Positions 2,580-35,082 of a stretch of DNA of 64,000 nucleotides are shown here, one piece after another; the first letter of the stretch is position 1, and every line of letters starts with the position of its first letter. This stretch comes from Sclerodactyla briareus (Eukaryota > Echinodermata > Holothuroidea > Dendrochirotida > Sclerodactylidae), in assembly GCA_026419785.1 (NCBI GenBank), contig JAODTK010003499.1, forward strand, positions 62,001 to 126,000, given 5' to 3'. A program made the position numbers and the translations under genes. Below the pieces are notes generated by a model. That model made no database searches. It worked only from the letters and a program-made list of their open reading frames with translations, and had not been told where the DNA came from.

Positions 2580-3978
2580 GCTGACCGCATAGATTCCTGT
2601 GCCGTTGGCAAGGAAGAAAAAACTAAATTATCGGTCCGACCCCTGCGTTCATACCAGTTTTTCCTGTGTATTGCTCAACGTCGAATAACATCCCACCATG
2701 CATTACTAAATGATATCATCTGAATAACCCTGCCACATGTTCTCTGTTTTTTCATACAATGTAACTCATTATATTTCACTGTGAAACGTGATAGTCTTAA
2801 AAGAGATGATGCTGTGTTGAGTTCAAGACTCTTACATGCATTAGAGACGATATCTTGAGATTTGAGTCAATGATTTTGAGTCTTCGTGATATGATATTTT
2901 CGTACCTCCGACTGTCGTGGTTATAATTTATGCAGATGAAACAACTCAAACCACAAAACACAACGAATAAATTAAAAATATTATCTGTGTTGTATCTTAT
3001 GGCATCTTCTCTTCATTACCGTTCTTTAAATCATGTTGTAACTAGGGCCTCGGGTAAGATAGCTTATTAGCTAACCGAGTCCTTCAACCTTATGATGCAT
3101 CACTGCGCAATATTGCGCATGCCTTGTTTGTGACGATTGATATTTCTTACATACTTATTACTGACACAACTAAATATCATCAGTCATACTCCGGCGTTCT
3201 CACGGCTGTTTATCTATTTATAGGCATTTGGGAGTTTGTGAGTGTGTATCGCGCAACACGAGAGGCTCCCCCAGCACAACTGAATTATCATACTGAATAA
3301 CCGCTGCAACTATTCGTTGTTTTAATTACAGTTTTATGTTTGTTAGTTTCACAAAAAAAAATCCTGCAATCCTGTGTTGAGCTTTTACTATGAACAAGCA
3401 AGTGGAGTGGGCCTTAAACTTGAGACACAGTTTTTTTGTGACAACTTGGCCAGGGCCCCTGTTGTGTGCTAGCTTCACTTGTTGGCATCACTCACGTAGT
3501 CACACTACATTAGGCAAGGAGTCAACACATAATAGGTCTGTGGGAGTCAGAAGCCTGGTAAATAGTTTAATTTGTTGCTTCACTTCAAGACTACCTGTAT
3601 TTGACAGTGGATATATACTCGGGGGGCATTAGCCAATCAAATTGCTCCAATGATTGTTACTTATCCGTCAACCGGATATATCCGTGGCATCCCAAGTTTC
3701 CAGCTGAATTGTTAGGCTATTCAGCCTAATGTGATCAACCATGCATTACTGCCTCATTTGTCCAATGCTTTGTTAAGGCAAGTGATATTTCTCAGTGTGT
3801 TCCGGTTAATTATTAGGAATAACACTTTGACGGTCGACGAGACTTCAGGTTGGAAAGGAGACAACCGTCCGACTAATTTACAAACGCCGGTTTGAGATTT
3901 GCATTCACAATTTTTATATTGTCTTCAGTGATTTGAATATTCTCGTGCCTCTATCTGTTTTTGCATTATCATCACGCG
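2580..3978 (+). repeat. Start of HYR array 1: intron-like sequence and a truncated HYR exon
   Basis: The stretch resembles the introns between the HYR exons further on, for example 'catcccaccatgca' followed by 'taaatgatatcat'. At 2929-2950 it has the array's acceptor and exon start ('ttatgcag' then 'atgaaaca'), but the sequence leaves HYR similarity within about 15 bases and rejoins intron-type sequence, so this exon copy is truncated. About 2999-3110, with 'cctcgggtaagat' and 'accgagtc', matches about 24110-24220 at the start of the second array. That shows both arrays share the same 5' side. Confidence 0.6.
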
Positions 3979-4212
3979 ATGAAACACCCCGAGATCCAAT
4001 GCCCACTAAACATAGTGAAGAATCACACCAGCAGATGCCACGAGGTGAGGCTCGATTTGAAGCAACTTGTTCGTAATAACTCCGACGACCACTTACCATA
4101 TTGTGCGACAGATCCTCGGATCAATGTTCCGATTTGTACAGAGTACTATTATGCAAATGACCGACCCTGCCAATCTCTACTACCATGCCCCTTCTCGGTA
4201 ACCAGTTCAATG
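3979..4212 (+). pseudogene. HYR (hyalin repeat) domain exon 1, broken
   Basis: HYR domains are extracellular adhesion modules of about 80 residues with an immunoglobulin-like fold, expanded in echinoderm hyalin and related matrix proteins. Conceptual reading gives the hallmarks in order: D-E-T-P-x-I-x-C-P near the start, TDNSDD in the middle, and a C-x-C-TDP-A-N-L-Y-x-x-C segment before the exon end. The donor follows AAT-G as 'gtgcgt'. The usual acceptor 'acgcag' reads 'acgcg' here, so the AG is missing, and the frame shifts within the exon. Exons of this array begin and end in phase 1, as is normal for HYR modules. Confidence 0.7.
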
Positions 4213-4949
4213 GTGCGTATGTTTATTTGACCGTAATTAACTGCAGTGTTTTTTGATTTTAAAGTGAGCAGGAATCCATTCAAGGTCGGACTCAATCAAT
4301 TAGACAGAAGCTATATAATACGTGACGAATGACTAAATGTATCAGTCGAACCGCGCGTTCGTGCTACTTTTTTTGTTACTAAATTTTATTATTTAAAGTT
4401 TGTGCATGTGTATTACTTAACATCGGAGCGCATCCCACCATTCATACTATGTAGCGTACTTGAATGACCCGGCAAATATTCTTTGTTTTTAAATGAGGGT
4501 TTGATGTGTTCAGTTTCACTGTAATTAGTTTGAGATAGGATCGCTGACTGCTTTGGCAAGTATCGATGGTTACTTCCGGGGATAAGGATGTAGAATTTCA
4601 GCGGAATTGAGTGTAATTAACCCATGAAACATTAACTCCTTAGACTTTCTTCGGTTGTTCAACGTGACGCCAGGTAGTCCTGCCCTATATTGCCACATGC
4701 TTTGCTAAGGCAATGCATTTTCACAGTGTCTACTGTCAATTATTAGGGATAGCAATTTTGACGGTAGACGAGACTGTTCGCTGGAAAAGAGGCATCCGTC
4801 ACGACTAATTTCAAACGACCGAGTTCGAATCTTGTGCAGAACATACTTACCGATATCTTTAAGATTTTAGTCACAATTTTTATATTGTCTTCAGTGATTT
4901 AAATATTCTCGTGCCTGCCTACTTTTTTTTTGCATTATCATTTACGCAG

Positions 4950-5180
4950 ATGAAACCCTCCAACGATCCAATGTCCGCTAACATAGTGAAATCGGCACCA
5001 GCTATGACCAGAGGTTAGGCCGATTTGAAGCAACTTGTTTGGATAACTCCGACGGCCACTTACCATATTGTGCGAGAGATCCTCAAAATCAATGTTTCCA
5101 ATTGGTACAGAGAACGTATTATGCAAATGTACCGACCCGCCCATCTCTACGCCCGTGCAACTTCTCGGTAACAGTCAATG
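4950..5180 (+). pseudogene. HYR domain exon 2, frameshifted
   Basis: Preceded by a pyrimidine-rich acceptor ending 'tttacgcag' and followed by the donor 'gtgagt' after AAT-G. Both are intact and phase 1. The HYR signature is clear by eye: P-x-I-Q-C-P early, then the DNSD core, then the C-K-C-TDP-A motif and a terminal T-V-N-G. Several single-base shifts keep it from reading through in one frame. Its introns are nearly the same sequence as those of exons 1 and 3, so the repeat unit is exon plus intron (about 1 kb), not the exon alone. Confidence 0.75.
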
Positions 5181-6097
5181 GTGAGTAATATTTTATTTGA
5201 CCGTAGTGTAACGCAAATGTTTTGATTTTAAAGTGAGAGGATTCCATTCCCATGTCGACTATCATTAGACATAGGCAATATAATCCTGAATATGACTAAT
5301 GTATCCGTCGAAACCCGCGTCATACGACTTTTTTATATTTTAATTAATTAAAGTTTGTGCATGTGTATTACGTAACATCGGAGAGCATCCCACCATGCAT
5401 CTAAATGATATCATCTTATAAACCCGGCAACATCTTTGTTTTAATGCCTTGTTGTGAAAGGTGATATTTCCTTTACGACTATTCTCTGACAAAACTAAAT
5501 CTACAGTCATACTCCGGCGTTCTCACGAGGTTCTTTTACGGATTTAAGGCAGTTTGAAGTTGTGGTGTGTAGTGCGCAACAACGAGAGCATCCCACCATG
5601 CAATACATATTTATATCAACTTGAATAACTCTCAAACTTTCTTGTTTTAAATGATAGTTGATTTGTTGGTTTCACTGTGCTTATTCCATGATATAGGACC
5701 GCTGTACTGCGTTTTCGAGTAATCGTGGTTACATTCACTGGATAAGCAGTAGAATTTCAGCGTAACTTGAGGTATTATACAATGGATCGTAAAAACTCCT
5801 AAGACTTTCCTTCCGTGTTGTTCACTGTGACGCAATGCATTACTGCCCATATTGCCAATCTTGTTATGGCAATGATATTTCTCAGATGTGTACTTTTAAT
5901 TATTATGGTACATGACGGTAGACAGTTTCGGCTTGGAAAGAGACATCCGTCACGACCAATTTTTCAAACGATCGAGTTCGAATCTTTGCGGAATATACTT
6001 ACCTATATCTTTAAGATTTAGTCACAATTTTCATATTGTCATTCAGTGATTTTAATATTCTCGTGCCTCCTACTGGTTTTGCATTATCATTTACCAG

Positions 6098-6336
6098 ATG
6101 AAACACCTCCAACGATCCAATGTCCAGCTAACATAGTAGAATCAGCACCAGCTGATGGCCACGAGGTAAGGGCTCGTTTCGAAGCAACTGTTCGATAACT
6201 CCGACACCACTACCATATTGTGCGGAAAATCCTCAGGATCAAGCTTCCGAATTGGTACAGAGAACGTAATATGCAAATGTAACCGACCCGCCAATCTCTA
6301 CCAACCATGCACTTTTTCTTCTCGGTAACAGTCATG
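6098..6336 (+). pseudogene. HYR domain exon 3, best conserved of array 1
   Basis: Acceptor 'tttaccag' and donor 'gtgagt' are present. The reading DETPPTIQCPANIVESAPA opens the exon. Later come a GSSFRIGTENVICKC-like stretch and TDPPNLY before the final Cys and the V-T-V strand, which is the standard HYR order. Small indels interrupt the frame. It sits about 1.15 kb after exon 2 with homologous introns on both sides. Confidence 0.75.
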
Positions 6337-6897
6337 GTGAGTCATGTTTATTGTACCGTAGTGTAACTGCAAATGTTGTTGATTTTAAAGTGAGAAGGAA
6401 TTCATCAAGGCGATAAGCCAATTAGACAGAGGATATTATACTGAAGAATGACTTAAATGTATCAGTCGAACCGCGGCGTTCATACTATTTTGTTACGAAA
6501 TTATATTAATTAAAGTTTGTGCATGTGAGTACGTAACACCGGAGAGCATCCCACATGCAATATGAGATGATATCCTACTTGATAAACACGGAAAACATTC
6601 TTTTTTTTTTTAATATAGTTGATTTGTTAGTTACTGTAATTAGTCTATGAGATAGGATTGCTGTACTGCGTGACAAAGTAATCGATGGTTACTCACGGAG
6701 ATAAGACAGTTAGAATTTAAGGGAAATGAGTTAACTATCACAATGGAACAATTTAAACTCTAAGACTTTCTTGTGTTGTTCAAGTATTGTGACCCATTCA
6801 TACTGCCCGATATTGCTAATGCTTTGTTATGGCAAGTGATATTTCTCAGATGTGTACTGTTAAATAGTAGGTAGCAATTGACGGTAGACAGACTCGG

Positions 6898-7081
6898 TGA
6901 TGGCCACCAGGGTGAGGGCTCGATTTGAAGCCAACTTGTTCGGATACCTCCGACGGAACACTCACCATAGTGTGCGAGAGATCCTAAAGGTCAGGTGGGA
7001 TGGGGTACAGAGAACCTAATATGCAAATGTAATCGACCCTGTCTATATCTACGACTAGTGCAACTTCGGGTGACATCAATT
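6898..7081 (+). pseudogene. HYR domain exon 4, 5' truncated
   Basis: The sequence jumps from intron-type sequence ('gacggtagacagactcgg') straight into the middle of an HYR exon ('tgatggccac'). An upstream intron piece, the acceptor and the first third of the module are therefore missing. The second half is recognisable: DNSD-like core, Cys motif, and the end before 'gtgagt'. It is the last HYR exon before the transposon insertion at 7450. Confidence 0.65.
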
Positions 7082-7447
7082 GTGAGTAATGTTTTATTAC
7101 ACTCGTAGTGTAACCGCACCATGTTGTGAAAAAAGTGAGAAGGGAATTCATTCAAGGGACAAACTAATAAGTGGACCGAGGCTTATATAATACCTAAAAA
7201 ATACTAAAATGTATCAGTCAAACCAGCGGTGTCATACTATTTTTGTACGGAGTTGGAGGCCATTTGGCGTTGGTGACATGCGTATTGCGAAATCGAAAGA
7301 GCTCCTACAAATGCATTATACTGATATCATACGTGAATAACCCTGCAAATATTCTTCGTTGCGAATGGACATTTATTTGTTAGTTTCACTGTGAAAAGTA
7401 ATTATTCTATGACTATGAGATAGGATTGCTGTAGTGCGTGGCAAGTG

Positions 7448-7449
7448 TT
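7448..7449. other. Left target duplication (TT) of the CACTA-like element
   Basis: TT precedes the element's CACTG end at 7450 and recurs after its right end at 16711-16712. Removing the element joins 'ggcaagtg' to 'ttgatggtacattc', which matches the uninterrupted array sequence around 25630-25650. Confidence 0.6.
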
Positions 7450-7469
7450 CACTGACAAAATAAATGGTT

Positions 7470-7755
7470 CGCTCGACTAACGTAGGTTAGTCTATCCGGT
7501 GCCTCGTTCGACTAACTTTTGACTAACAGGTTGTTATCTAGCTAGACTAACCTATGTTAGTCAAGCACATTAGTCAATCTAGATAGACTAACTATGGTTA
7601 GTCAGGATGTTAGTCCAGTAGCTAGAATAACTTTACTAAGGCTAGACTAAGTACGGACTAAGTTTTGGTTAGTTCTAGCTGGTGCCCTTTCGCGACTAAC
7701 TTAAGGCTCAAAGTTAGTACAGGTAGCTTGACTAATCCGCTTGACTAAACTCAGG
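7470..7755. repeat. Left subterminal GACTAAC/GTTAGTC repeats
   Basis: More than a dozen copies of GACTAAC or its complement occur in about 285 bp, several arranged as short palindromes such as 'gactaacgtaggttagtc'. In CACTA elements the transposase binds arrays of this kind. The same motif fills 16430-16700 at the other end. Confidence 0.75.
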
Positions 7756-7879
7756 ATAGGTTTCGAGCAATATAAATTTGGGATTGTGGAAATAACCTTT
7801 TTCAGTTGAAGCATGCCGGTAGCTGCGTGGCAGTTCAGGATAGATCGTCCAAACCAAAAGGTTCAAATTGAAAGATATT

Positions 7880-7900
7880 TATTCAACAGGAGATAGTTCA
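7880..7900 (-). promoter_or_regulatory. Possible poly(A) signal for minus-strand transposon gene
   Basis: The minus strand reads AATAAA ('tttatt' on the plus strand) just inside the left subterminal block. Its position would suit the 3' end of a minus-strand gene filling the element. The motif is short and could occur by chance. Confidence 0.2.
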
Positions 7901-10644
7901 CGGACAAAATGTATATGTACATGGAAGATGTTGATGCAAACTCCTAGGAAAATTGGATGAAAAACTACACAGAAACGAACTATTATAAAAAACTGTGAAA
8001 AGACCAAAAGCATGTCATGGACCTGGAATGTTATATAGCACACTTCCAGAAAAGATTATAAAACACCAAAAATAAAACAACTAAATATATAAAACTATGT
8101 GGAAGCCAAAATGGGCAAAATATAAATCTTATTTTCAAATCCATTATGTAAAGACAATGAGTTAATAATGCAACTGGTTCCATAAAGCACTATGTAGGGA
8201 GATATTATTTCTTAACACCCATTGCTTAAAAACCCTTTAAACAATCCTCTCATCTAGTGAAGGATAATGGAGCGTACGTGCCATCACAAAGACAAGGTGA
8301 AAAGCATTGAACTCATGAGGAGAGGAATGTTTCTTGTAACAGCCGGAAAACTTCATGGGAAGAGTGGACGGTTTACAAATAAAAAAGTGAACAATGCATA
8401 CCAGGTTTTAATAAAAGTAGATCTAATGTTATGAAATACCGTAATATGGAAAGAACTGGAGTGAAAACTTATAAATGAAGTAAGTATGGAATGATCATGT
8501 GCAGAAAGGTGCCAGACACAATGACAACAACTCGGGCACCAGATGACGAACCAGGAAAATTTTATGCAGTTGAACAATCTTGTGTCAACTGCGTCAACTA
8601 ACAAAAATGCCAACAATAATGTAAACAAAAAAGCACAGACTCTGTTCTTTCGATCTGATCAAACACACAGGAAGATTCAAGTAATCAATCAGGAGCTCTT
8701 TAGGCAAAATGAATGAAACTGTAGAGAATCAGAAAGACATTCCGACCTGACATCCTCATTATAGGCAGATATTGTCATGTGTGGTTTTATTGCAATGGTG
8801 TAACTGTTCTAAACAAAATTATTTCATCTTTAACGCTCTAGGGTCTGTGACTGAATAATGAGTCACATTGAAATGGTTTAAAGCAAGTTAGACTGATGCG
8901 GATTCCAAACAATCGAAAATTTTGCTGGAATAATAAACTAGGTGCAAACACATTGAGTATCTGATCAGACTATTCTGATCAGGAACAATTGAGGAAATTT
9001 AAATAGTTAAGTGAACTTTGATGACGTCTTCTCATTAGGGACCTATACCCAAACACTAGATAGGGACCTTGTGGCATATATACATTGAAGTTACCTGAGG
9101 AGGTGTGTACCCTACATGTCAACCTGATCTCTTGCCAATCACACTGAAGCAAATTTGGGTAAAATACAACATTGTGCCGAAACAATTAACATTTAAAAAA
9201 AAATTCCAAGCCTTGTTCACCCAATGACTAGTTAGAGTATTGTCACGAAAAAACAACATAGAACCATCTTCTCATTATGGGCTGTCTTACCACCAACTAT
9301 TGATCAATAAGACTATGCATCTCACTTTGTGATTTCCCAAGGAAGCATTTCCTGAGTACCCTCCCCAAGTATTCTAATTTATGGTAAAAAAAATCATTTG
9401 GCGGCCAAAGGACTAGATAGCAAGTCGAAAGGGGGTTAGAGAGTCAGGATTCCATCTACTGCAGGTTAGGACTTTAAGCTTATCGCTAAAGATCACAATG
9501 GCGTCAAAGGGGGGCAGTTGAATAATCCACGTCAAAATCACCTCTGTAGAAGGTCAGGGTCGGCCCAGTCCCGGGTCATTCAAAATTGAATACATAGAAT
9601 GATGCTACCCACATAGCGACAGCCTTTCAAAAAGAGTGAAGATGCCACAGCCGTGCATCCGCGACCAGGGTATATCTTGCAGTTTCTCAGTAGTCTGAAT
9701 GGAGGTCCGGCAATTGAACAACAGGTATGGACTCTACAGTATAGGAGAGAGAAAAAAGAAAGTTGAATAATTATCAAAGGAGCAGCAAAAACAATGATAC
9801 AGAGAAAACAAATTCAGGTTCTATGGCACATTTCGCATATCTATTGTTTCATCCCTTCACAGACCAATCAGCCAGTTTTAGGGATCATGGAGGGGGGGGG
9901 GGGGGGGGGGAAGGAATCCTTGCAGAGAGGGGGAGTGGAATTGTCTGGCAACTTCAGCGTTTATGCTAAAGTGAAGATTCGCACGATCTGTGAAAAAGGA
10001 TCGTAATCCCACAAAAAAAATTTCAAGTGGGGGAATTCCTGCACTGGTTCACGATAGGAATAGCAAATTCTGCACCGTTCAACCAGTACCCCTCTTGGTC
10101 CGTTGGGCATAATGTGAGCATACTCATAATACGGGTGTCGCATCAAACACACGCGGACATGAGAGGAAACACTAGTCATATGTTCACTAGCGAACCCGCA
10201 CAACGACAACTTTGATTAAACATGATTTTGCACAACTGGTGCAAGTACAGATTCTTGATAACCATGAAGAGGGGACCAAAAATTCACTGTGAATAATGTT
10301 GTAAATGCAATCTGAAAACATGTAAAAATTCATCAAATTAATGGAACAGGCAGGTAGATGTATTGGTTATTTTCTGAGAAAACCCCCACACCCCCCATAG
10401 ATTCTAACATTCTTTTTGAAAATTGTCATGGAGGAAATTCCCACCCCCCCCCCAGTGAGACCTAGCCCGTAAACACTGGAACCTGCGACAATAGAGACAA
10501 CACCTCAACAAAAGTGGAAATTTTATTGAAAATTCTTTCTGCCAGTGTAACAGCATTAAGGTGAAATCTGGATATCAATAAACAAAACCGACATCGGTGT
10601 TTGTCAGTTGGCAAACTTGCGATCATTTATCACACATCTGTTAC

Positions 10645-10790
10645 ATACATTGGCGTCAACCGGGGGGACGGGGGACAGTGTCCCCCCCCACATTTTGAGG
10701 ATACTCCCATTGACTGTTCATTTTCACACAGTAATTTTTTGGCGGCGCGTTCATGTCCCCCCACTTATGAAGATGGATATTGACCAGCCT
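10645..10790 (+). repeat. G-rich hairpin repeat (ggcgtcaa...ggggga / tcccccc family)
   Basis: A short dispersed element starts 'ggcgtcaaccgggggg', forms a G-run/C-run hairpin, continues 'actcccattgactgttcat' and ends with 'ttttggcggcgcg' and 'catgtcccccca'. The same segments occur in reverse orientation at about 60140-60345, and fragments lie near 23750-23830 and 62690-62760. It is nested in the CACTA-like element. There is no coding capacity. Confidence 0.6.
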
Positions 10791-11499
10791 AGGTTAACAT
10801 AATACAGTACTTCCGGTTCTCTGAACACCCATGAAACAACAGTGAATTTATCCCTCACATGCCGTGTATACAGGGTATGTTGGGACCAAGAGACCAAAGG
10901 CATGTCACAATGTAACTTACAGAACATCCGAACCACTACAGTCCCAAGCAGGCGGAGTCACCGGCCACCTACCTGCCCAGGAGCACGAGAGCCAAGTTGC
11001 GAGTAGATAAATTGACTCAGTAAGTTCTCAAGAATGCTAATGGGTAGGAATGTGACCCCTGTCTCTCCTCCTCTTTCGCTTGGAAGTAATCCACCATGAC
11101 GGTCAGTCTAGAATGTCCCAAATACAGCAAAGGCAGTGGACACAGAACCCTACGCCATACCTCATTGTCAGGCTTCCAAAAATTCGTTGACAACCCTTCC
11201 AGAAGTCTTGAGTGGTGAATAATCTGCCGGCACATGCATCTGAGGAGATGAACAAAATAATGACCATAACAGGTGTTTGTCAAATGTCTGAACAGTAATT
11301 GGAGTTTTTGATGCTAGACTAGTATAACCAAAATCATTTAGTTGTCATTGAAGGACTCAGAACAGTTAAAACTCAAATGATTACAATGACATCTGACACA
11401 AATTTGGGTCAGCGGTCAACGCTAGGTTTCAAAATGTTGAAAGTGGTGAGCTGACACATTGCCAGTTTTCACCAAGGGAAGGGTTGTGATAAGGGGTTT

Positions 11500-12060
11500 T
11501 CAAGTACGCCAGCCTCCATCTGGCCAATTTTGTCTACATGACCTCCTCTCTCCAATGAACAGCATTGCAAACTATTGTTACACAAGTTACACGAAGGAGT
11601 AGCGTACATGGGATTTAATACCACCCTGGCCATACCGTTACGCTTCAATCCCATAGCTACATGACTGTCGCCTAAGGGCAATCCGTAAACAGAAAATTTT
11701 TCTGGGCCCATGTGGCGGTTCTTCCGGCAAACTTGATTTTGTGTGATTAAATGAGAATGAGAAGACAAAAATGATAATTTTCAATGGCTCACTAATTCCA
11801 CAAGTAGCCAGCAGTAGGCCTAAGCTACTGAATTTGAACATATGAAGACACCTGCGTCGAACAATCTCTTCGAAATGGGTTTGTATCAACCCAGCTACAG
11901 TCTGTTCATCACTGGAATTTTTAATGTTTCCGGGTGTGAAGTTGTATATATTTACAGCGAATTCTCCATGGTCAAAACATGGAATGGTACATGCACCAGT
12001 TATGCCCGAAGAAATCATGTTAATTCGATAGTTATCGATGAGCTGGCTTCGTAGTAAACA
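11500..12060 (-). CDS. Unrecognised minus-strand open frames inside the transposon
   Basis: Two overlapping minus-strand frames stay open across this stretch: one of about 140 codons (12063 down to 11638) and one of about 100 codons (11768 down to 11469). The first contains ITGACTIPCFDHGEFAVN and an EEIVRRRC segment; the second has a Cys cluster CNLCNNSLQCC. Their relation (frameshift, or exon junction near 11770) cannot be settled by eye. Orientation agrees with the exon candidate at 13173-13565, so they may belong to one intron-containing gene of the element. No domain is recognised. Confidence 0.25.
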
Positions 12061-13172
12061 CAAAAATCGTGTTTCACTGCAGTGTTACAATTGTCGACAC
12101 ACAAGAATCCGAGTATGCCTACATTGGCATGACGTACCAACATAGGACTGATTGTAAACAGTGACCAATTTGTATGCTGTTATGGGAAAATCAGTGGCAG
12201 GAAATATCCTGCATCTAAATTATTTTAGGCAGGATTTTTGTTTGTGGCGCGATTCACAAAACGCACCAGTGTAATAATGGAGTGAGTTGTTGAAAAAAAA
12301 TAAAAAATAAAGCTAATTATGGGCTTAATTAGCAGTACCATGATTGTATTGTGGCATGATACTCACCCAGGTATATCTGTTTTTGAACGTTTGGTGCATC
12401 TAAAAATGTTTATGCAATTTTGATTACTGCTACGTTTACAATCAATGGGGTTGTTTGTCCATCGTCTGTAACCGCGTTGCAGATGTCCGTCTACTGCCTA
12501 CTGAAAATACGAAGAATGATTCTTCTGGGCTTCCATCTGATCACAAGGCCGCGCATTACTTCTTGAGACCAGTAATAATTATGGTGACGAGTGGTAAATC
12601 CCCGCCCTGAATTCGCAGCATCTCCACTGACAACTGGATTTGATAAAGCAAGCAATATGTAATCATGGTGAGTGTGTTGCTCATCAACCAGAAAAAAAAT
12701 CCTTGAATGCAACTGTGTTTGTTTGGTTTTTTTTGTAACCACAACCGTCGAATGACACAAAAAACAGCTAGGCACCACACCAATCACTTTAAAAATTGAT
12801 CAGAAGAGGGGTATTAAGTGATTCATACACCTATAATTACATGAACTTGTACTGTAAAAAATATGTTGTCCGGACAGTAGTTTAATGGCAAAAAATGCTT
12901 TGTAAATACAGTCAATTTCTGTACTATATACAACAATTACCAGCAATTCCAAATTAATTTGGCATTCATCAATGCGCGGGAAATGAAACCATTAACCATA
13001 GAATGTTTGTAAGGGAAGAATAGTAGTGACTAGTCAAACAACGTCATAGTCTACATCAACACAATATGGGTGGTCGGATCAATTGGAAATAAAAAATGAT
13101 GCTGATGGAATGTCCCACCAATGGCAAGTAGCTACGGAAGAGTTATATTAGGCATGTTCAGTGATGCCTTAC

Positions 13173-13565
13173 CTGGTATCAATCGACGAGCCAGGGAGCT
13201 TCATCCCTGACTGTACTGAGAGGGGGCTGTGGCACTGGTTAACACCATCCCCTTTCCGTCTCTGTCAGCAAGCGTCTTCTCCATGGCAAATGAAACCCAC
13301 TGTAGTCTGGCTGCTTTCTTCCTTCGCTCCATCTTCATCCATATTCTTATGTTGCTCAATCGAGGCATCATCTTCATTTCCTGGACTGTCTGCAGGTAGT
13401 AGGGGGCCCCCCCACTGTGGACTTCACTGTTTTTTTTTTGAGGATTTTGTCTTTCTGCCCCGGCCACTTGCGACGCTCGTTATCCCAACAGCCTCTAGTC
13501 CTGGTCCCTTCCTTCCGCCGGTTGTTTCTAACTTGTTTTTTAGCCGTTTCTTCTTCCAAGGTTCT
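13173..13565 (-). CDS. Charged-residue-rich minus-strand exon candidate in the transposon
   Basis: Read on the minus strand the region is rich in Glu, Lys, Arg and Asp: 'EEETAKKQVRNNRRKEG' near its start and 'NEDDASIEQHKNMDEDG' later. It ends at a good donor, AG|GTAAGG, at 13172-13171. At least one frame change is needed to read it through. The composition is that of a nuclear, linker-rich protein segment, not of random intron. It could be the N-terminal part of the element's transposase, but no catalytic motif is visible. Confidence 0.3.
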
Positions 13566-16429: not shown

Positions 16430-16700
16430 AAGGTTAGTCTGGGTTATGGGGTTAGTCAGAAATTGGGCCACTATCCCGTGCACCGGCATGACTGGCTTCA
16501 GCAGACGAAAGTAGTCTATCGAAAATCCGTGGTTAGTCTAGCTCGGGAACTGGTCCAAAAGTTAGTCTATCTCTCCTCTAGGTTAGTCAGGCTCCCATGG
16601 TGGAAAAGCGGAAGAGTATCCTAGTCGAAGTTTATCCGGATAGCTTGACTACTTGCTATACTAACTTTGTCTCTCCAACGCTTGTTTTTGACTAACTTAT
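16430..16700. repeat. Right subterminal GACTAAC/GTTAGTC repeats
   Basis: Repeated GTTAGTC and GACTAAC motifs ('ggttagtctggg', 'ggttagtctagc', 'gttagtctatc', 'ttgactaactt') mirror the block at 7470-7755 and mark the right end of the CACTA-like element. Confidence 0.75.
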
Positions 16701-16710
16701 GTTTTCTGTG

Positions 16711-16980
16711 TTGATGGTACATTCCGCAAGGGTAATCAGTAAAAAGTGCGGAATTTGAGTTATTTAATTAACACAATTAACCCAATAAATTCATATACAT
16801 TCTCTGTGTTGCTCATCTTTTGGCGCCATGCATGATAATTCTCAGTTACGTACTTTCTATCTTAGTGATACAGTTTGAACGGAGACAAACTTCAATTTAA
16901 AAAGAATTTCCGCCCGACTATTTCCTAAACGAGCCAATTTGCAAACTCCTACTGCCGTTATTAGTCACTGTCTTTAATAT
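16711..16980 (+). repeat. HYR-array intron continued after the transposon
   Basis: From 'ttgatggtacattc' through 'cattctctgtgttg', 'gccatgcatgat' and 'gacaaacttcaa' this follows the HYR-array intron order seen at 25635-25760 and 26930-27070. Similarity stops near 'gtctttaatatttt', before the next expected exon, so the last unit of array 1 is truncated. Confidence 0.65.
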
Positions 16981-16999
16981 TTTATTAATATTTATTATA

Positions 17000-18050
17000 T
17001 GGTCTTTATGGTAGATAAAGTAAGTTAATACGCTAACTTCTACTTCTTTTTTGTCTCGCCTGAAGTTTTGTTCAAGAGCGACATAGTATCACTTTTTGTT
17101 TTGTGTCTGTCTGTCTGTCTGTCCGTCCGTATGTGGCTGTGTTTCGATATCTCCTTAACGCGTGAAAGCTGTCTTGCTGAACGAGTGTAAATGTTGTACA
17201 ATGAAAAGTTTCGATGTACACCTACTTTTCGTCCCGTAAAACTCATTTGCATAATTTGCCATATTTCATGAAAATTTGGCCTCCTGGAAGCTGTGTTGTA
17301 CGGGTATCTTCTTGATTCAGTAGAGTAGATGCATTGGTGTGATGAGGTTCAGGCCTATATAACAACTATGAAGTGTAGATGAACGGATAGATTTCCAGCA
17401 TTATATGGTGCTAATTAAGTAGTCTAACTTGCATAATGTATGCGATGTCTGGAAGTTAGATTTCATGAAAAATTGGTGGGAGATGGCTTTATTTATATCC
17501 TGATGACATTATACCGCAGGGACGAGAGGTAAGAGGTCATTTAATGTGACAATTTGCATTGAAGAAGTCCAATTTGCCTAATTTATGCCGATTTTAAAGT
17601 TGGTTGCTTTCTATTGAAACTTGGGAGATGGAACACCTTCAATCCTGATCAATTTAACAGTGTCAAGGTCACTGACGGTAATTTAATGTGACTAACTTGC
17701 ATAAAATTATTCCATTTTTCATAGTTCATTAAAAAAACAAAATGATCGAAAATTGAGTTGGCAGTTAGGGGTTCGTTAGAGGTTTTAGCGGTTTGTCATG
17801 GTCATTTCTGGATTCAGTGAGACAAACATCATCTAATGATATTGTCGAAAGGTCAAAGGTAGAAGTCTTTTAGTCTTTAGAAAATGTGCTTCATTTTAGG
17901 AGTGGTTTATAGGGCAAAGAAATAAAAAAACGGTTATTTTTGGGAATGTGAATAGCTAGGTGTTGCTTACATAGACGAAGCCAGCCCCGCTTCAAGGGGT
18001 CAAGGCTCGGTTTTGATACCTTTCGGGCCGGAGAGCATATGGTGTGTGTA
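17000..18050. repeat. Dispersed repeat with (TCTG)n and 'aatttgcataa' modules
   Basis: It begins 'tttgtctcgcctgaag', a start also seen at about 53755 ('ttttgtttcgcctgaac'). It passes a (TCTG)n run at about 17105-17130, then repeats a loose module containing 'catttgcataat', 'catgaaaa' and 'ttgg' about every 130-170 bp to about 17720. A related set lies at 22030-22480. No coding is supported. Confidence 0.5.
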
Positions 18051-18054
18051 TCTG

Positions 18055-18370
18055 ATTATGTAAAGCTATTGCGGCTTGGTACATTAAACATCGAGGCAAA
18101 GCATTTTTCATAAAAACCGTCATTGTCATCAAAGGTCATGCATTCCGAATCATAACATTTTCTGCAAAAAAAAACTTCTAGTGACGGGGTGCGATATGGC
18201 TGAAAGGGGGACAGCTGCATATTATTCAGGGTAACATTTTTCAAACTGTTATGTCATCAAAGGCTCATTCAAGGTCACTTAGGGACCAAAAACTGCCAAA
18301 TAATAACATTTCCGTGTAAAACCTCTTACCTATTTAAGGTCACAAAACTTCCAGCTAATAAACATTCTCT
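18055..18370 (-). repeat. Inverted fragment of the 1-2280 tandem repeat
   Basis: 'ttttcataaaaaccgtcat' followed by 'gtcatcaaaggtcat' is the reverse complement of the ~140-bp subrepeat of the first array, and a second copy follows at about 18229-18275. The repeat is thus dispersed as well as tandem. Confidence 0.6.
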
Positions 18371-18449
18371 CAACCAAACTCTAGTGACCTGCATGCGACA
18401 CGGATCTGATGTTATTGAGACCATACATGGGATTATTTGGGACTATCGG

Positions 18450-21400
18450 AACATTATACTGTTCTACGGACTTTTCATCAACAATGTTGCTTTCGACTTC
18501 TGTTACACAGCATTGTTGCCTTCGTAATTCGCAGGACGCTACTGTTCTGCCATCAAAATGTTGCGAGTTCCACTAACTCTCTGAACATTATTATTTGGGT
18601 TCGTCGGACCGGCTCCCCTATAATGAGTTAGATTTTGAGAAAGACGATTTGTTCACCAAAGTCGAGAGGGGAAATCGTCATCGGTAACCTAATCCGTGTA
18701 CATTTGCGTGAGCAAATGCTAGCCTAGATTTTGACCGACAAGCCCGCGAGGGGGCTGAAACCTGTTGGCTTTAGATATAGCCAGGCTAGGAGTAAATTTG
18801 GTTTACGCTCACAATTAAGGCTATGCGGGACACTCGCCGTTCAACAGTTGTGAAATTAGCTCGGACCAAATTGTGACTGCTTTGTTTTGTAACGGTTTTT
18901 ACTTGTTCAAGTCTTGTAATGACTAAAGACTAGAGCAAAACCACATGGTCTACAGGTATAGGTCAACGTTACACGGCCCCTGTGGAGTGAACACAGCTTG
19001 TGTAGGATCCTCATTTGAACACCTTGCTGGGACTGTGTCACTAGAATTTAGCAAGTAATGTCAGCCATTTTATTTCAGCTTTTTTGCGAGTAGCAACATT
19101 TTTCATAGATCAGGCTGAGCCTATAGAAGCTAACAAACTTGGGTACCACCTTCATATTTAATAACTAAAAATATTAGGAACAGCATGCGGAATTCGGAGA
19201 GAAATAAGGGCAATAATTGATTAACACAATTCCCCCCCCCCCCAAACATGCTAATGCAAAAAACAGAACCCCGTTTTTGTCACAGATGTTTCCCACGATG
19301 AGCAGCTACCTGTACTTGCAAAAAGGAGCGCAGGCAACTCTTCACGAACTGACTGGTTGTTAGGCTAGCACAGTTAATGTAGTAGAGGGTTAGGCCACTA
19401 CCCGAGATTGGAACCTGGTCAGGTCATATCTGATGATCATGGATCCTGTGCTTTTCCGCCGGGCGCTCAGAACAGAGGAGTGAGTTAGGCAGGCAATTAG
19501 CAAAATGATGTCTGTTGGTTTACTCCCACCCTATACATATAAAGGTATTATCGAAGAGGCATGCCTTATCAGGTACATGATGAACAGGGCAGGAACTGAT
19601 AATTGGCTCGCAAGCTTTTTCTTGTTGACAAAATGTTTTTCTATGGAGAGAGTCTATTCTACACGAACTGGTATCTGAGTTCAACACTGTGACCCCACTT
19701 TTGGGGGATATTTTGCGGGTATGAGGGCTAGGGGGATATTTCAATGGTATAAAAAATATAGGATTTCATTGGAGTCGAGACAATAAGATTGAGTCATCGA
19801 GAATCACAAATAGTGAAAATATATGGTTGGCAGGTGTTGGAATTTTTTTTCTTTTACTATTACTTCGTCCCAGATTCGAACTTATGTGAGGACCGTGATG
19901 CTTATGGTTCTTATCATCTGCCCAATGAGCAACGGCATAGCGAATACTCGAGTAGCCTGTTCTATGAATTCTGTGAATTAGATAGGCATAATACAGTCTC
20001 AAGAGAGTGAAACTGACTTTTGAGCCAGATGGCCTTGAATGAAATTCTTATGTGGTGGCCCGCCCTTGCAGGGTGGAAGGGCTGAAAGACATTGAGTTGG
20101 TGGAGTTAGTTTATTTATTCATATAATTATTGTCTTAGCTCATTTGAGTGTTACATGCGAATTTTGAAGACAATCTGGTTTTCATGAAACTTGGTGGATA
20201 TTATCTACTATCACTATCAGTCTGAAGAGTTATAATAGTGGAGCTGAGGTAACTAGAGTAATTTTCGTCTAATCATCATAACCTTGTGGATGTTCTGGCG
20301 AAGAGTAGCAAGACTAATCCGAGAACCAAAGTGTTTGGAGAAGGGCCAGTCCTCATTTCGCCGAAATGATGCATCCACAAGCATTCAAGCAGGGATGAGT
20401 AGACACTGGTGGTTTCTTGCCTTCTTCTTCTGGAAACGTATCCAGTCTTCTACCAGTATCAGCTTCTACCAGCTGGGAAGAAAGGGTTCAATCCCCAGTC
20501 GGGTCATACCAGGGAAGAATAGTACAGCGCCTTCTTGTCAAACGCTCAGGCCCAAAAGAAACTGGAGGAAGTTGCCAATTGGCTAATCACTGTATGCATG
20601 TTAAGCCCACCTGCACGTCAAGGCACTATATACCGGAGAGGCTGATATACCTGTGGGGAGAATTCGCAGCTGACCAATAAGTGCAGTTTCTATCTATTTG
20701 TATGCCTATTCTATCCACAATCCATCATCCATCCCAGCCATCAGCCTCAAGCCATCCATCCACTATAATTCAGATTTTGCTACTGACACATTCTTTGTTG
20801 GTCATTATGAAACTTCTATCACACTGAAGACCAAATGGAAGAACATCTATGGTGTTCAAATATCACAGTCGAAGGTCATTAGGGTGAATCCTGTCATTTT
20901 TGGTGTGGTCATCATTATCTTAGGCCTAATCTAATGACATTCGGATTGAAATAGTAAGGTCTGGTTTCATGTGTATGAAATGGAACGTGAACGTGGTGGA
21001 CCTGCTCTGATTAGAATTGGAGTATAATAAAGGGGTCAATTCGGTAGCGAGGGGGTTACTGTACTAGCTCCCATATTTTTAGCTCTTTCCCCTGCAACCA
21101 GTGATTATTGAACAGCGGGTAGTTTCAGGGTTCGAATTCCCGGACTTTTGAAACCTGTTGTCTTCTCGTTGGCACTCGGTGCACAGGACCAGGGCAGGGA
21201 AGGGAACTGCTGTTCTGGCGTACGGCCCGCGTCTTACATCAAGAAGGAGGGGTCCGGACCTCATCAGCCCCCTCTCCCCTCCTACCTGCTTGCACTCTAC
21301 ACCATGAAAATATGTGTTATGCTGTGGTCCTGTTACCCCCACAAAAAATATAGAGGTAGATAGGGCTATACAAAAAACTGAATCTTCCTCCCACTCCGAA

Positions 21401-21695
21401 AAATCCCACCCAGTTCCGAGTGCTCTATCAACTTATTAACATTGTCCAGTGATAAATTGTGTGTAATGATGATTAAGACACTACATAGGACGGGATGGAC
21501 ACGAGTGGGGACACGAGTGTGGGACACAAGGAGGATACTGCAGACAACCTTCAAGTAGGAATATGAGACGAGAGGTTGCCCGAATGAAATGACCCTCCCA
21601 CAATATCATCACAATATGATAAGGGCACAAGAAGATTTAAAAAGTGGGCACAGAATAATGTAGGTGACATTACGCCAGTAAAAGAAATTGCCCAT
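18450..21695. repeat. Duplicated segment D1 (partner of 28156-31565)
   Basis: It aligns along its length with 28156-31565 in the same orientation. Shared landmarks include 'gttgccttcgtaattcgcag', 'cctagattttgaccgacaag', 'ggatcctcatttgaacacc', 'tttccgccgggcgctcag', 'gtctattctacacgaactgg' and 'cagaataatgtaggtga'. Differences are scattered substitutions, 1-base indels and a few larger gaps. D1 lacks about 95 bp covering the middle of the open frame found in D2, and a stop follows the aligned ATG. Each D block follows an HYR array. Confidence 0.85.
21050..21330 (+). repeat. Possible tRNA-derived SINE-like segment (D1 copy)
   Basis: 'cagggttcgaattcc' resembles an RNA polymerase III B box, and 'gcaaccagtga' lies at about the right distance upstream for a weak A box. 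The D2 copy at about 30980-31260 keeps the same order. The A box is poor, so this is only a possibility. Confidence 0.25.
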
Positions 21696-22029
21696 TGTTC
21701 CAGGTATCCATGGGTATACATTACAGTATGGAAATAATGCCGTTTGTGTTTCGCCCTGAACAAACTTTTTTTTTAAAAGGATTACTCCGAAACAGTGAGG
21801 CAAATTTTGACGAAATTTTTATGTAGTATCAGGGTTGGGTGAACACGATGGACTAGGTCTTGGGCGTCGGTAAAACCCACTATAAAGGAGGGTGGTAATT
21901 AGCCTTATTCGGATTATCCATTGTTTAGCTCGTTCGCAGAGGGATTACAGATGACTGTGATTGCTATGGTTGGGGCTTGGTTTGGAACTAGGTTAAGGAT
22001 ATGAGGATGAGGAACTGATTAGATGTTAC

Positions 22030-22480
22030 AGCGTTAAAATATGCTAATTGAGATGCTTAATTTGGCATTTATGTGGACATTTAAAGCTCGTGCTATTTTC
22101 CCGGAACTTGACAGTGAATATGGTTCCGAATCCAGTCCTGAATTTTTTTAAAGAGATTCAGGGTCAAGGCATTAATTCAATGTGTCTACTAATTTGCGTA
22201 ATTCAGGCCAAAAATCATGAATCAGTTTGGTGGCTTTAATGAACCTGATGGGTATGTTTACCTTCAGTTTAATTTTTTTTTTTTTCATGGAATCCGGTCA
22301 CTGGAGGTCATTCAAAAAACATACTTTCTAATTTGCATAAAATTTATGCGTAATGCTAAAGTTGCAGATTCCCATGAAATTTGTAGGTGGACTTACCCTA
22401 CCTTCCAAATTCTTAAACTTGACTGGAAAGTTATCAGTTAGTCTATTTTGCATAGACCATTCCAAATTTCAAATGTTCAA
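22030..22480. repeat. Second set of 'aatttgcataa' modules
   Basis: Units containing 'taatttgc', 'catgaaat' and 'gattcccatgaaat' recur about every 130-170 bp, as in 17230-17720. The rest of the gap between D1 and the second HYR array (22480-23880) shows no gene I can support, only a G-run fragment of the hairpin repeat at 23750-23830. Confidence 0.5.
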
Positions 22481-24449
22481 GTTGGTTGGATTCCCATGAA
22501 ATGTGAGAGTGTGGTCTACAATGTCCTGAAATATATTTGAAAGATGTGAAAGATATATATTTGGAATGAAGTCAGACAATTTCAGTCATATATCTACAAA
22601 ACTTATACTCCTTCGGTGGATATGGTCACCCAGTCCTATGAATGTAATGTTCATGGTTTTTACGCTGGTTCTGTTGAATGCTAATACAAAATTCTGGGAG
22701 CGAGACATGGAATGCCTGTAATGTTTGTACTGTGACTAATAGAAAAACCATCAATCGTGCAACCAGGTGAGACACTGGGCGTGATCGCCTTGGGACGATC
22801 AAATGTTCATTAGTTTTCTTTGCCTAAGTAGGCCTGGCCTCGGAAGCTAAAGTTGAACTAAATGAGAAACTGGTACAGTTAAACTACAATAGTCAGTGAC
22901 AGTTCAGTCCCCAATGACTGGACTGTGTGTTCAGTGGGTTACACACACTGCCAAGAACAGACATTGTTTACATTGGGCGTATCATTCCTTTGTGAGGATA
23001 GTAGTTAGGCCTCAGGACGAAAGGGCATTACTGTTATGGGCCAAGTTATTTCTTCGGTCGACATATAGGGTATGCCGAAAAGTTCGACCCACTGACTTCC
23101 TACAAATGTTTTGGCCAACAACCGTTTCAGCCAAGTACTTGTTCAGCTAACCCGTATCAATGGATGTTCGGCCTACCACGGCTGGATGGTTTGGCCGCCT
23201 GCCTTAAATATAAGCAACATATTCCTATTATTCATTCCATTATACCGGCGCTAATGCAGTACTGTGTGACCTGTTTTAACCATAGAACGCTCAAAGATTT
23301 CGATAAAACACCATCTTAATAAGAAGGCCAAGCAGTGAAAATTTGGGCATTGGAGAAGGTTCAAAGGTTTTTAAAGACCACATTTTTTTTTTTATATAAA
23401 CTCAAGTGTGTATGAGCTGAGGTGCTGAAACTAACAACATTGAAACATCGAGGAAGGTCAAAAGATCTAAAGAAACAAAACAGCCTTCCACATGAAAAGT
23501 TCCCGTAAGTCATTAATGCTCCTTGTTGATCATTCTGAAGTGAAAATATTAGAGCATTTATTTGGGTTTGAGTTACAGCTCCATTGGTGTTTCTTGTTGG
23601 CTCTTAACTCGGGAATTCGATGAAAAATTGAGAGTTTTGGCCTTATTGGCCCATCATCTGGTATTGCCTAAATGCTTCAATTCTCGACCTGAATGGAGAG
23701 ATCACAAAACCCAGAGGCAATTTATGCGAGCTCATGTCCCTCATACGCCAAAACGTGGTGGGTGGGGGGGGGGCATTTGATAATGTGTCCCCAACCATCG
23801 AAATGTGGGGGGTGGAGACGTGTCTCCCGTACAAGGATTGAACGGCCCATGACACCATGCACGACTTAAGGATATCATTACTGAATAAACCCTGCAAATT
23901 TCTCAGTTTTTTCAATAGCAATGTACATCATTATTTTTCACTGTGAAGAGTGATCAGTCTATAAGAGAGGAAGTGTATGGATTTGCCTTGTTATGGACAG
24001 TTGGTATTTCTCAGATACATTCTTTCTATCATTAGTGATAACAGTTGAACGATAGACAAGACTTCAAATTTCAAAAAGGATTTCCGCACACGACTAATTT
24101 ACATAACATATTCTTTATAACATCTTTATTTCATGACCGTTCTTTAATCTGTTTGTAACCAGGCCTCGGGTAAGATAGGCTTATAGCTACCGAGTCTTTT
24201 ACCCCTTGATGAAATGCATCATTTACCTAGATATGAGTTTCTATTATTAGTGAAAACACTTCGAATGATAGACAAGACTGTTGAATGACCAACAGTTGAC
24301 AAGTTCCAAAAAAATTATTTTGAACGACGAATTCCCTGAACGAGTTCAAACCGATATCTTTTAGTTTGAGTATGATTTTTACATAGTTTCAGTGATTCTA
24401 ATATATTCTGGTCGGGAGTGGGATCGTGCGTGCGTTATCATTTATGTGG

Positions 24450-24654
24450 ATGAGAGAGCTCCAACGATCAATATCCAGCGACATAGCGGAGCCAGCACAA
24501 GCTAATAGAAATGAGGTGGAAGCTTATTTTAGAGAAAATGTTCAGATAACTCAGGCGGTCCACTGAAAACCCCCAAAGGGGGGAGTGGCGAAAGGAAAAA
24601 CCCTCATGATCCTGCTTCAAAATTGGTACATAGAACGTAATCTGCAAATGTACC
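24450..24654 (+). pseudogene. HYR domain exon 5 (array 2), degenerate and 3' truncated
   Basis: It starts 'atgagagagctccaacgatc' after a decayed acceptor region ('tttatgtgg'). It keeps 'ccagcgacatag', 'gataactc' and a 'ttggtacatagaacgtaat' stretch typical of the module, then breaks off after 'tgcaaatgtacc', losing the last Cys strand and the donor. A 40-bp G/A-rich insertion sits in the middle. Confidence 0.6.
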
Positions 24655-25043
24655 TAGAAAAGAATAAACTAAATATCAGTCAACCGGCATTCATACTACT
24701 TTCTGTTTACGGTGAGCGTAGAGGCATTTAAAGTCTGTGAATGTGTATACGCAAAATCGAAGGAAAAGAAGAGCAACCAACCATGCATACTAAATGATAT
24801 CATACTTGAATAACCAGCAATATTCTTTGGTTTTTTATATGACGTTTGGATTGGTATAGTTTCCCTGTGAAAGAAATAGTGTATGAGAAACATCCCTACC
24901 GAATAATTTTCAAACGGACCGAGTTCAAACCTCTTACGTAGTTATATAGCCATCTATCTTTAATATTTTAATTCATTATTTTAAAGGTCTTCAGTATCTA
25001 AGTATTCTCGTGCTTCCTACTGGTTTTGTACATCGGTCACCAG

Positions 25044-25272
25044 ATGAAACACCTCCGACGATCCAATGTCCAGTTAACATAGTGGAACCACACCATTGCT
25101 AGCAACGAGGCGATAAGCTCGTTTCGAGCACATGTGCAGATACTCCGACGACCACTTGACGTAGTTGCGGGAATCTTCCGGATCAAGCTTCCAAATTAGT
25201 ACAGAGAACGTAACAGGCAATTGTACCGATCCGTGGTCTCCACAGGAGTGCACTTCCAATTACCAGTCAATG
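25044..25272 (+). pseudogene. HYR domain exon 6 (array 2), frameshifted
   Basis: Acceptor 'ggtcaccag' and donor 'gtgagt' are intact. It opens ETPPTIQCPVNIVEP, the canonical start of an HYR module, and ends with the C-T-DP segment and a T-V-N-like strand. Single-base shifts interrupt the middle. Flanking introns match the rest of the array. Confidence 0.7.
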
Positions 25273-25901
25273 GTGAGTAAGTTTTATTTACCCATAGTGT
25301 GACCAAAAAGGGGTGTGATTCTAAATGACAGAAGGGGATTCATTCAACTACAACTGGTCAATTAATACGAGACTATTATAACAGCTAAATCTGAAGGTAT
25401 TGGTCCACCCGGCGTTCATACGAGTTTTTGGGGGATATTTTTTCGTAGAGACATTCGAAGTTTGTGGTGTGTATTGGGCAACATCGAAGCACATCCCAAA
25501 TGCAATACTAAATGGTATCACACTTGAATAACCCCTGCTAATTTCTCGTTTTCGAATGACATTTATTTGTTGTTCCACAGGGGGGGGGGGAGGTGAAGTG
25601 ATTAGTCTATGCACATGAGATGGATCGCTGGCTAGTATTGATGGTTAAATTCGCAAGGGTAATTCAGTAGGATTTTGGTTGCGGATTTGAGGTTATTTCA
25701 ATCAACACAATGAAACTAATCAATTCATAAGACATTCTCTGTGTGTTCAGCTGTGACGCATGCATTACTGCGTGATTGGCCAATTGCCTATTTACATATA
25801 TACCACTTCTTTAATATGTGAGTCATGATTTTTAATATGGTCTTTCAGGTGAATTTCAATATTTCGTGCCTCCTAGTGGTTTTACGTTATCATTTATGCA
25901 T

Positions 25902-26141
25902 ATGACCCACCCCCGATGATTCAATGTCAGTTAACATAGTGAAATCAGCACGTGCTGAGCGACGAGGGTTACAGGGCTCGTTTTGACGCAAGACCTGTTC
26001 AGCTAACTACCGACGACAAACTTTCAATAGTGTGCGATAAATCTCAGGTCAGGTTCCCAATTGGTACCAAGCCACGAACATGCAGTTGTACTGATCCTGC
26101 CGGTCTCTACATGGAGTGCACCTTTCAAGTTACAGTCAATG
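25902..26141 (+). pseudogene. HYR domain exon 7 (array 2), long open core
   Basis: From 25952 the frame stays open for 66 codons and ends RTCSCTDPAGLYMECTFQV then TVNA, a textbook HYR C-terminal half (paired Cys, TDPAG, aromatic, Cys, V-T-V). The region upstream encodes PMIQC-like sequence after a shift. The acceptor reads 'atgcat' and the donor 'gcgctgagt', so both splice sites are damaged although the core is the best preserved of array 2. Confidence 0.7.
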
Positions 26142-26235
26142 CGCTGAGTTAATTGTCATTTCACTGTAGTGTAACTCAAAAGTGTTGATTCTAGAGTGAG
26201 AAGGAAATTCCTTCGGGACAAAACTGGTCAATTAG

Positions 26236-26562
26236 AATGAGGCTAATAATAATAATAATAATGTCAGTTTCTTATTATGAGCGCTTTACCACCGAAGTGC
26301 TCAAAGCGCTGTACAAACATTACCCCGATCACAGGAACCAGTCACGCATCAGACAATCTCGGATGAGTATATAGCGGCAGCTAATCAGAGCCAGTTGTGT
26401 TCTGATACTTCACGTTCCCCCATTTGCTACACCTGGGTGAAGAGAAAGCAAGCGGGATAAAGGACCTTGCTCGAGGGTACAACGTGGGCCGGGCTCGAAC
26501 CCCCAAAACCTATGGGTTAAAAGCTCGACGCCTTAGCCAATTAGGCCACCACGGCTCTAATC
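26236..26562 (-). mobile_element. tRNA-derived SINE with (ATT)n tail
   Basis: On the minus strand the head reads 'tggcctaattggctaaggc' (A box), then 'gggttcgagcccg' (B box) about 35 bases on. The body ends with 'gtacagcgctttgagc' and 'gtaaagcgctcataataag', and the tail is (ATT)n, on the plus strand (AAT)n at 26242-26262. This is a complete tRNA-type SINE. It interrupts an HYR-array intron: the flanks 'caattagaatgaggct' and 'aatctaacagctaaa' join to match 25358-25390. 'ggctaat' and 'ggctctaat' at the borders are a possible target duplication. Confidence 0.85.
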
Positions 26563-27207
26563 TAACAGCTAAAAAAGTATCGGTCCGACTCCGGCGTTCA
26601 TACGACTTCTTCTTCTGTTTACACAAGGGCATTCGAAAAGTTTGTTACATGTGTATTGTGCAACATCGAAGAGCATCAGAACATGCATAGCTTGAATGAT
26701 TTCATACTGAATAAAACCCTGCAAAAATCTTTGCTTTTGAATGGCACTTTATGTGTTAGTTGTCACTCTGAAAAAGTAATTAGTCTTTGAGACTCTAATA
26801 GTCTATGAGATAGGATGGCTGTAGTGGGGTGGCCAGAGTGTTGCTGGTTAATCAGCAAGGTAATCAGTACACACATTTCCTACGGAATTTGAGTATCGAA
26901 CCCTTTGTGACAACCAATAAATTAAAAGCATTCTCTGTGTTGTTCCAGCTGTGACGCCATGCATTACTGCGCGATAGTGCTAATGCTCGCTACAACACGT
27001 ACTATTTCTCAGGTACGTACTTTCTATCATGAGTGAGAGTTTGAAATCGAGAAGGATTTCCGTCACGACTGAATTCCTAAACGACCAAGTTCCAAGCTCT
27101 TACGTCGTTATATGCTATCTTGGGATTTGAGTCATGGTTTTTAAATGGTCTTGAGTGATTCAAATAATACCGTGCCTCTCACTGGCTTTGCATTATCATT
27201 TACGCAG

Positions 27208-27444
27208 AGAAACAGCTCCATCGATTCAATGTCCAGCTAGCATAGTGAAATCGGCACCAGCTAATAGCACGAGGTAGAAGCTCAATTTTGATGGCAACTG
27301 TTTCAGATAACTCCGACGGACACTAATATATTGTGCGGGAAATCGTCAGGATCAAGCTTCCAAATCGGCACACAGACCGTGACCTGCAAATGTACCGATC
27401 CTACTGATCTCTACAACAGTTGCACTTCCAAGTTACTGTCATTG
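27208..27444 (+). pseudogene. HYR domain exon 8 (array 2, last)
   Basis: The acceptor 'tttacgcag' is intact and the donor region reads 'gtgggagt'. The exon encodes SIQCP-like sequence, a DNSDG core ('gataactccgacgga') and the CKCTDPTDLY-like segment before the final Cys. Frame interruptions are present. After it, array similarity fades by about 27500 and the D2 block begins some 650 bases later. Confidence 0.7.
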
Positions 27445-27645
27445 GTGGGAGTAATATTTCATTTCACTGTAGGTGCTGCAAATGTCGATTATTGAGTTAG
27501 TAGAAAATTCATTAAAGAGCTCATAAAATGGGCAGATGAAAATATCAAAACTAATGCATTAGTAGTTCCAAAACACCATTGCACGGTTTGCTTTCCCAAA
27601 ATCACCGCCGTTTCAACATGGTTAGCGTGATCTTTCAGTGGTCAC

Positions 27646-35075: not shown

Positions 35076-35082
35076 TAGAATC

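Follow-up and report, generated by a model that had tools for sequence, protein, structure and literature searches.

Tandemly duplicated HYR exons and introns in a Sclerodactyla briareus contig, and the probable origin of their frame breaks

How should a tandem series of protein-coding exons be read when most of its copies have a broken reading frame? We address this question at a locus of the holothuroid Sclerodactyla briareus (assembly GCA_026419785.1; 319 Mb in 3171 contigs), where exons encoding HYR (hyalin repeat) domains recur together with their introns. The stretch analyzed, hereafter the window, is 64,000 nucleotides long and comprises bases 62001-126000 of contig JAODTK010003499.1 (C2268). 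An initial annotation of the window allowed that the frame breaks could mark either a dying array or an indel-damaged assembly of a live one. We consider it likely that the locus is an ordinary HYR/EGF-type animal gene in which phase 1-1 exons were duplicated in tandem, and that the assembly in which we see it contains patches of uncorrected insertions and deletions (indels).

HYR exons occur in two arrays

Using nhmmer and a profile built from three seed units (3891-4775, 4858-5465 and 6010-6894), we found eight HYR exons and one truncated exon start in two arrays, at window positions 2855-7448 and 24373-27538 (Table 1), as the initial annotation had described. We named the units at 3891-7448 group A (A1-A4) and those at 24373-27538 group B (B0-B3). 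The unit size first proposed, 0.9-1.15 kb, fits the first array, where exons are spaced 0.97 and 1.15 kb apart with about 0.8 kb to the truncated A4, and does not fit the second, where the spacing is approximately 0.6, 0.86 and 1.3 kb. The domain assignment held in a hidden Markov model search with the consensus: Pfam HYR (PF02494) spans residues 1-79 of the 81 in a hand-made consensus exon, nearly its full length (E = 5e-16, 59.2 bits against a cut-off of 21.7). The same profile matches intact sister exons outside the window (E 2.6e-13 and 1.9e-17), and individual open pieces of the window copies fall under the cut-off, one of them, from A3, at 20.9 bits and another without a match.

Two additional members lie upstream, at 31.5 and 58.0 kb of contig C2268, so the series extends past the window; the exon at 58.0 kb, some 4 kb before the start of the window, is intact. 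Candidate exons at 31.07 kb of C2268 and 66.9 kb of contig C3006 (scores 23 and 28) were dropped for want of an HYR reading. A solved-structure search with one HYR exon gave a single match, to a G-protein beta subunit, that is not meaningful (E 0.013), and Rfam and transfer RNA scans of the window gave no matches.

Exons and introns are repeated together

The introns had been described as conserved to the same degree as the exons, and near the exons this is the case. We estimated divergence by gap-tolerant alignment of about 480 bases around each exon in six copies (A4 and B0 left out), an estimate that replaces a higher one from MAFFT. Between A units, substitutions amount to 8.7% in the exon, 6.8% in the upstream intron and 12.2% in the downstream intron. 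The corresponding values are 18.2%, 18.9% and 20.0% for A-B pairs, and 17.6%, 21.2% and 21.6% for B-B pairs. Exon and adjoining intron recur in the same order, as in tandem exon duplication with introns, and the exons have the symmetric phase that goes with it. The broader claim that the same ordered blocks recur between every pair fails at a doubled intron after A2 and at the truncated A4 and B0. The second, exonless intron block after A2 is consistent with loss of an exon via exchange between introns. The intron that follows B3 is represented by a short stretch only.

Exons start after AG at the second codon base and end in G before GTGAGT, and the introns are therefore in phase 1 on both sides. 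These borders are readable in A2, A3, B1 and the sister exon at 58.0 kb; one or both sites are missing from the assembled sequence of A1, A4, B0 and B2. With one symmetric phase 1-1 exon per HYR domain, the copying of an exon with its intron adds one domain and keeps the frame.

The introns also carry an interspersed repeat, because an intron block alone matches at least 32 places on other contigs. In a genome search with one unit (39 of 91 candidates scored), at least 32 of the 53 matches listed lie outside C2268, C3006 and a further HYR-bearing contig, C3131, and these cover the intron part only (query 411-663). The repeat sits at about window 6420-6672 and in the corresponding part of most other units. 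By profile coordinates, the repeat is present at least in part in seven of the eight units, the exception being B3. We propose that the arrays belong to an animal gene, presumably expressed, whose product would be secreted or exposed at the cell surface and would contain HYR and EGF-like repeats. In such a gene, the arrays would have grown by duplication of genomic stretches approximately 1 kb in length. Exchange within introns, most of which bear the repeat, is also a probable cause of exon loss and of the truncated copies, two of which, A4 and B0, are probably dead. Separately, a direct duplication of about 3 kb (18444-21585 and 28153-31481, approximately 77-81% identity) flanks the second array and has the same excess of one-base indels as described below.

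Frame breaks coincide with patchy indel excess

Reading the copies against the consensus at a frameshift penalty of 12 or 9, we observed at least one break in each of the eight exons at either penalty, in agreement with the claim that every copy is broken. The stricter penalty gives 33 breaks and four stops, three of which are in A4 and B0; at penalty 9 there are 50 breaks and four stops, all in A4 and B0. A3 is the best preserved copy in the window. One explanation is that these exons were once live, lost constraint and decay by real indels, with the intact upstream sister exon marking the part of the gene that survives. We consider such a dying array improbable. The ratio of indels to substitutions and a control with an HSC70-like exon favor assembly error, and of the two alternatives first raised it is the damaged assembly that we retain, except for A4 and B0.

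Damage extends past the HYR units. Among 15 repeat pairs in the window, duplicates outside the HYR units included, 14 have 6.6-11.1 indel events per 100 columns, with substitutions at 7-19%. Those outside the HYR units, which lie in the same stretches, have 7.1, 7.7 and 11.1 events per 100, a point against a dying array. The damage is patchy, since a two-copy tandem in the same window (42627-43388, unit of about 382 bases) is clean, with 1.4 events per 100 at 8.4% substitutions. Nor is the gap excess made by the aligner, because few gaps arise in simulated indel-free pairs: with 10-25% substitutions there are 0.1-0.8 per 100, and with 30% there are 2.2. When pairs hand-chosen as examples of the two classes were pooled, six damaged repeat pairs of C2268 gave 529 one-base indels against 647 substitutions (0.82), and four clean pairs (three within C2268 and one between C2268 and C3006) gave 25 against 199 (0.13). 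The ratio in damaged pairs is thus about six times that in clean pairs of the same genome, which is difficult to reconcile with a dying array. One-base indels show no homopolymer preference (0.47 and 0.44, the background being 0.476); homopolymer density was too noisy to serve as an error map and was discarded. The indel pattern resembles that of PacBio continuous long reads, a possible read type for this assembly. Most of the frame breaks are probably random single-base errors in patches of a draft long-read assembly.

An all-against-all comparison gave further values, which hold among the pairs listed. Several pairs between little-broken HYR copies have 1.1-2.3 indel events per 100 at 8-27% substitutions. 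High values occur on other contigs as well: on C3006, the pair 146684-146986 and 145936-146232 differs by 3.6% substitutions yet 7.9 indel events per 100, which points to uncorrected reads. Another damaged patch lies upstream of the window on C2268, where a tandem pair (contig positions 12745-15803 and 16538-19703, about 3 kb) has 9.2 indel events per 100 at 8.8% substitutions.

A conserved gene located on a different contig shows the same kind of damage, which again speaks against a dying array. A search for HSP70 placed 13 of 14 matches on contig C2424. Read against a paralogous open exon, an HSC70-like exon there has three frame breaks and no stops in 91 codons, and another HSP70-type exon has one break in 46 codons. 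By a hand count of the alignment, 8 of the 86 residues of the first exon that can be compared with mammalian HSC70 are different. That it is a pseudogene is unlikely, because so few residue changes stand alongside three breaks, although the presence of several copies on the contig leaves some room for it.

Signs of constraint and evidence for decay

Substitutions in the HYR exons suggest past constraint and do not themselves decide whether the array is live or dead. The pooled ratio of nonsynonymous to synonymous rates (dN/dS) is 0.56 over 28 pairs, which are not independent of one another, and differences are more frequent at third codon positions (0.343) than at the others (0.261 and 0.249). 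We also simulated neutral decay, running each of the six full exons 40 times against a reference partly built from the same copies; amino-acid identity was above all runs for A1, A2 and B1.

Several observations weigh against our interpretation, and some of them are what a dying array would predict. A pooled dN/dS of 0.56 does not amount to strong constraint, and two pairs involving A4 exceed 1 (3.05 and 1.13). The low stop count is ordinary under simulated neutral decay (P 0.40-0.68), with which stop counts alone are compatible, and identity was not clearly above the neutral runs for A3, B3 and B2 (0.075, 0.10 and 0.175). A4 and B0 are truncated and carry stops, as do two copies on C3006 (1 and 2 stops). 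As assembled, B2 is without both splice sites, and A1 and B0 are without an acceptor. A one-base gap at one site is common to A1, A2 and B1. Judged by eye, the neighboring bases suggest that different bases were lost; because the missing base differs, we do not take the gap as common ancestry and rejected a single inherited frame shift. The split between clean and damaged pairs is imperfect, as there are intermediate values, for example in a short-period array on contig C2986 with about 3-6 indel events per 100, among them about 4-5 per 100 at ratios of 0.1-0.4, and the conserved-gene control consists of one gene. Finally, in the copy-by-copy fit described below, two copies are broken despite a low fitted excess: B0 (1.7, 3 breaks) and E6 (2.3, 2 breaks).

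HYR copies on other contigs

Across three contigs we read 21 exon copies, 18 with at least one break and three without, for a total of 65 breaks and seven stops. Copies on C3006 and C3131 are broken like those in the window, with few stops; the six exons on C3131 have 0, 3, 4, 3, 5 and 2 breaks and no stops. The unbroken copies lie at 58.0 kb of C2268, 68.1 kb of C3006 and 122.7 kb of C3131. We fitted an excess of short indels to each copy, with substitutions left unweighted; of 210 pairs, 170 entered the fit and 40 were dropped because their alignments were short. Apart from A3, the copies with 0 or 1 break number four (X58, E1, D68.1 and X31), and their excess is 1.5-2.3 per 100; in 15 other copies, A3 included (1 break, 3.8), it is 3.3-5.5. 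Indel excess and frame-break rate have a Spearman correlation of 0.70.

In a tree of the 21 copies, the six on C3131 form one clade (support 100). The A-unit clade takes in two C3006 units (97), with A1 beside one of them (51, weak), and the B units are placed apart with low support. The terminal branches have the great length that errors would give them. Concerted evolution across both arrays, which the initial annotation had entertained, is unsupported by this topology: closeness within an array is seen for the C3131 copies and not for the window units. The label of satellite does not suit the locus either. Satellite DNA consists of long arrays of many near-identical units, and here about eight units differ by approximately 7-22% substitutions, a divergence that also leaves the suggestion of quickly changing copy number unsupported for these arrays.

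This topology bears on another explanation, in which the HYR units would be a copy-number-variable module of a recognition or adhesion gene, the dispersed intronic repeat would serve as the site of unequal exchange, and the number of HYR domains would differ between individuals. The introns do repeat with the exons, the doubled intron and truncated exons resemble products of exchange, and the single C3131 clade would fit. Unit matches lie close to either end of contig C3006 (18-272 and 257065-257320 of 257341), so the arrays may exceed their assembled size. Against this, substitutions of about 7-12% within A and 18-22% within B indicate that the copies are not freshly homogenized, the A units form no clade of their own apart from those of C3006, and the B units are not placed with them. 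On the sequence comparisons at hand, we think a fast module of this kind very doubtful, and continue with an ordinary gene seen through a damaged assembly.

Neighboring features

Two EGF-like exons lie downstream of the arrays on the same strand (Table 1), and another is found on that strand at 33.9 kb of the contig, also under Pfam cut-offs. These exons probably share a gene with the HYR arrays. On the minus strand, window 33.3-35.1 kb holds fragments resembling a long interspersed nuclear element (LINE). The reverse-transcriptase piece is at 33332-33604 and the PHD-finger-like one at 34741-35127, and each matches Pfam weakly, under the cut-off. Such LINE-like fragments, together with the HYR, EGF-like and HSC70-like exons split by introns, fit an animal genome. 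A protein search meant to place the species gave 35 hits with 28-47% identity; the named ones were bacterial apart from one of Symbiodinium.

Table 1. Units of the two HYR arrays and EGF-like exons, in window coordinates. Paired counts of breaks or stops depend on the frameshift penalty.
Feature	Position	Strand	Description
Scraps	2613..3844	+	Truncated exon start 2855-2951 (E 2e-5); intron pieces 2613-2755, 3171-3346, 3737-3844 (E 1e-11, 4e-10, 3e-12); nhmmer
A1	3891..4775	+	HYR exon ~3976-4215 with flanking and following intron; 6 or 12 frame breaks, 0 in-frame stops; acceptor AG absent as assembled
A2	4858..5465	+	HYR exon ~4947-5184 and intron; 6 or 7 frame breaks, 0 stops; acceptor CAG and donor GTGAGT present
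Second intron-block copy	5493..5925	+	No exon between; model positions 444-872 recur (E 6e-49)
A3	6010..6894	+	HYR exon ~6098-6337 and intron; 1 or 3 frame breaks, 0 stops; splice sites present; first open piece Pfam HYR E 5e-4
A4	6900..7448	+	Exon without acceptor and ~19 first codons (match from model position 145); 4 frame breaks, 2 or 1 stops
B0	24373..24868	+	Two pieces (E 7e-26, 2e-17); without ~17 last codons and donor; acceptor AG absent as assembled; 4 or 3 frame breaks, 2 stops
B1	24960..25782	+	E 2e-90; HYR exon ~25042-25275 and intron; 10 or 5 frame breaks, 0 or 1 stop; splice sites present
B2	25811..27036	+	HYR exon ~25902-26144; intron pieces to 26251 and 26532-27036; 6 or 4 frame breaks, 0 stops; AG acceptor and GT donor absent at expected places
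B3	27120..27538	+	HYR exon ~27206-27447 with short flanks; 4 frame breaks, 0 stops; AG and GT present
EGF-like exon	38078..38228	+	Weak EGF-type matches, best E 0.0016, under Pfam cut-offs
Second EGF-like exon	38855..39127	+	EGF_2 E 7e-4, EGF E 0.0014, just under Pfam cut-offs

Comparison with known systems

Apparent pseudogenes and frame breaks in this assembly can be error, and other broken-frame findings from this genome thus need a check of the ratio of indels to substitutions first. The locus is also a usable case of the exon-by-exon growth of an adhesion-type protein, in which possible intermediates, a doubled intron and truncated exons, are visible. A literature search found no paper joining HYR domain, tandem duplication, exon and intron, and HYR exon arrays did not appear among the titles listed, which does not prove their absence.

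The copying of exons with their introns is an ordinary route of growth for repeat proteins, and tandem exon duplication with repeat-bearing introns is already known. In human OBSCN, PMC9013439 describes homologous tandem exons with repeats in the introns between them. The present locus parallels this arrangement and differs in that its domain is HYR and most of its copies have apparent frame breaks. Among HYR proteins, the likeness comes from the profile match: the consensus exon matches nearly the whole family profile, and EGF-like exons lie on the same strand. With uncorrected long-read assemblies, the locus shares an excess of one-base indels, which is seen in a conserved gene too. PMC8812927 describes short-read polishing as unreliable in repeat regions.

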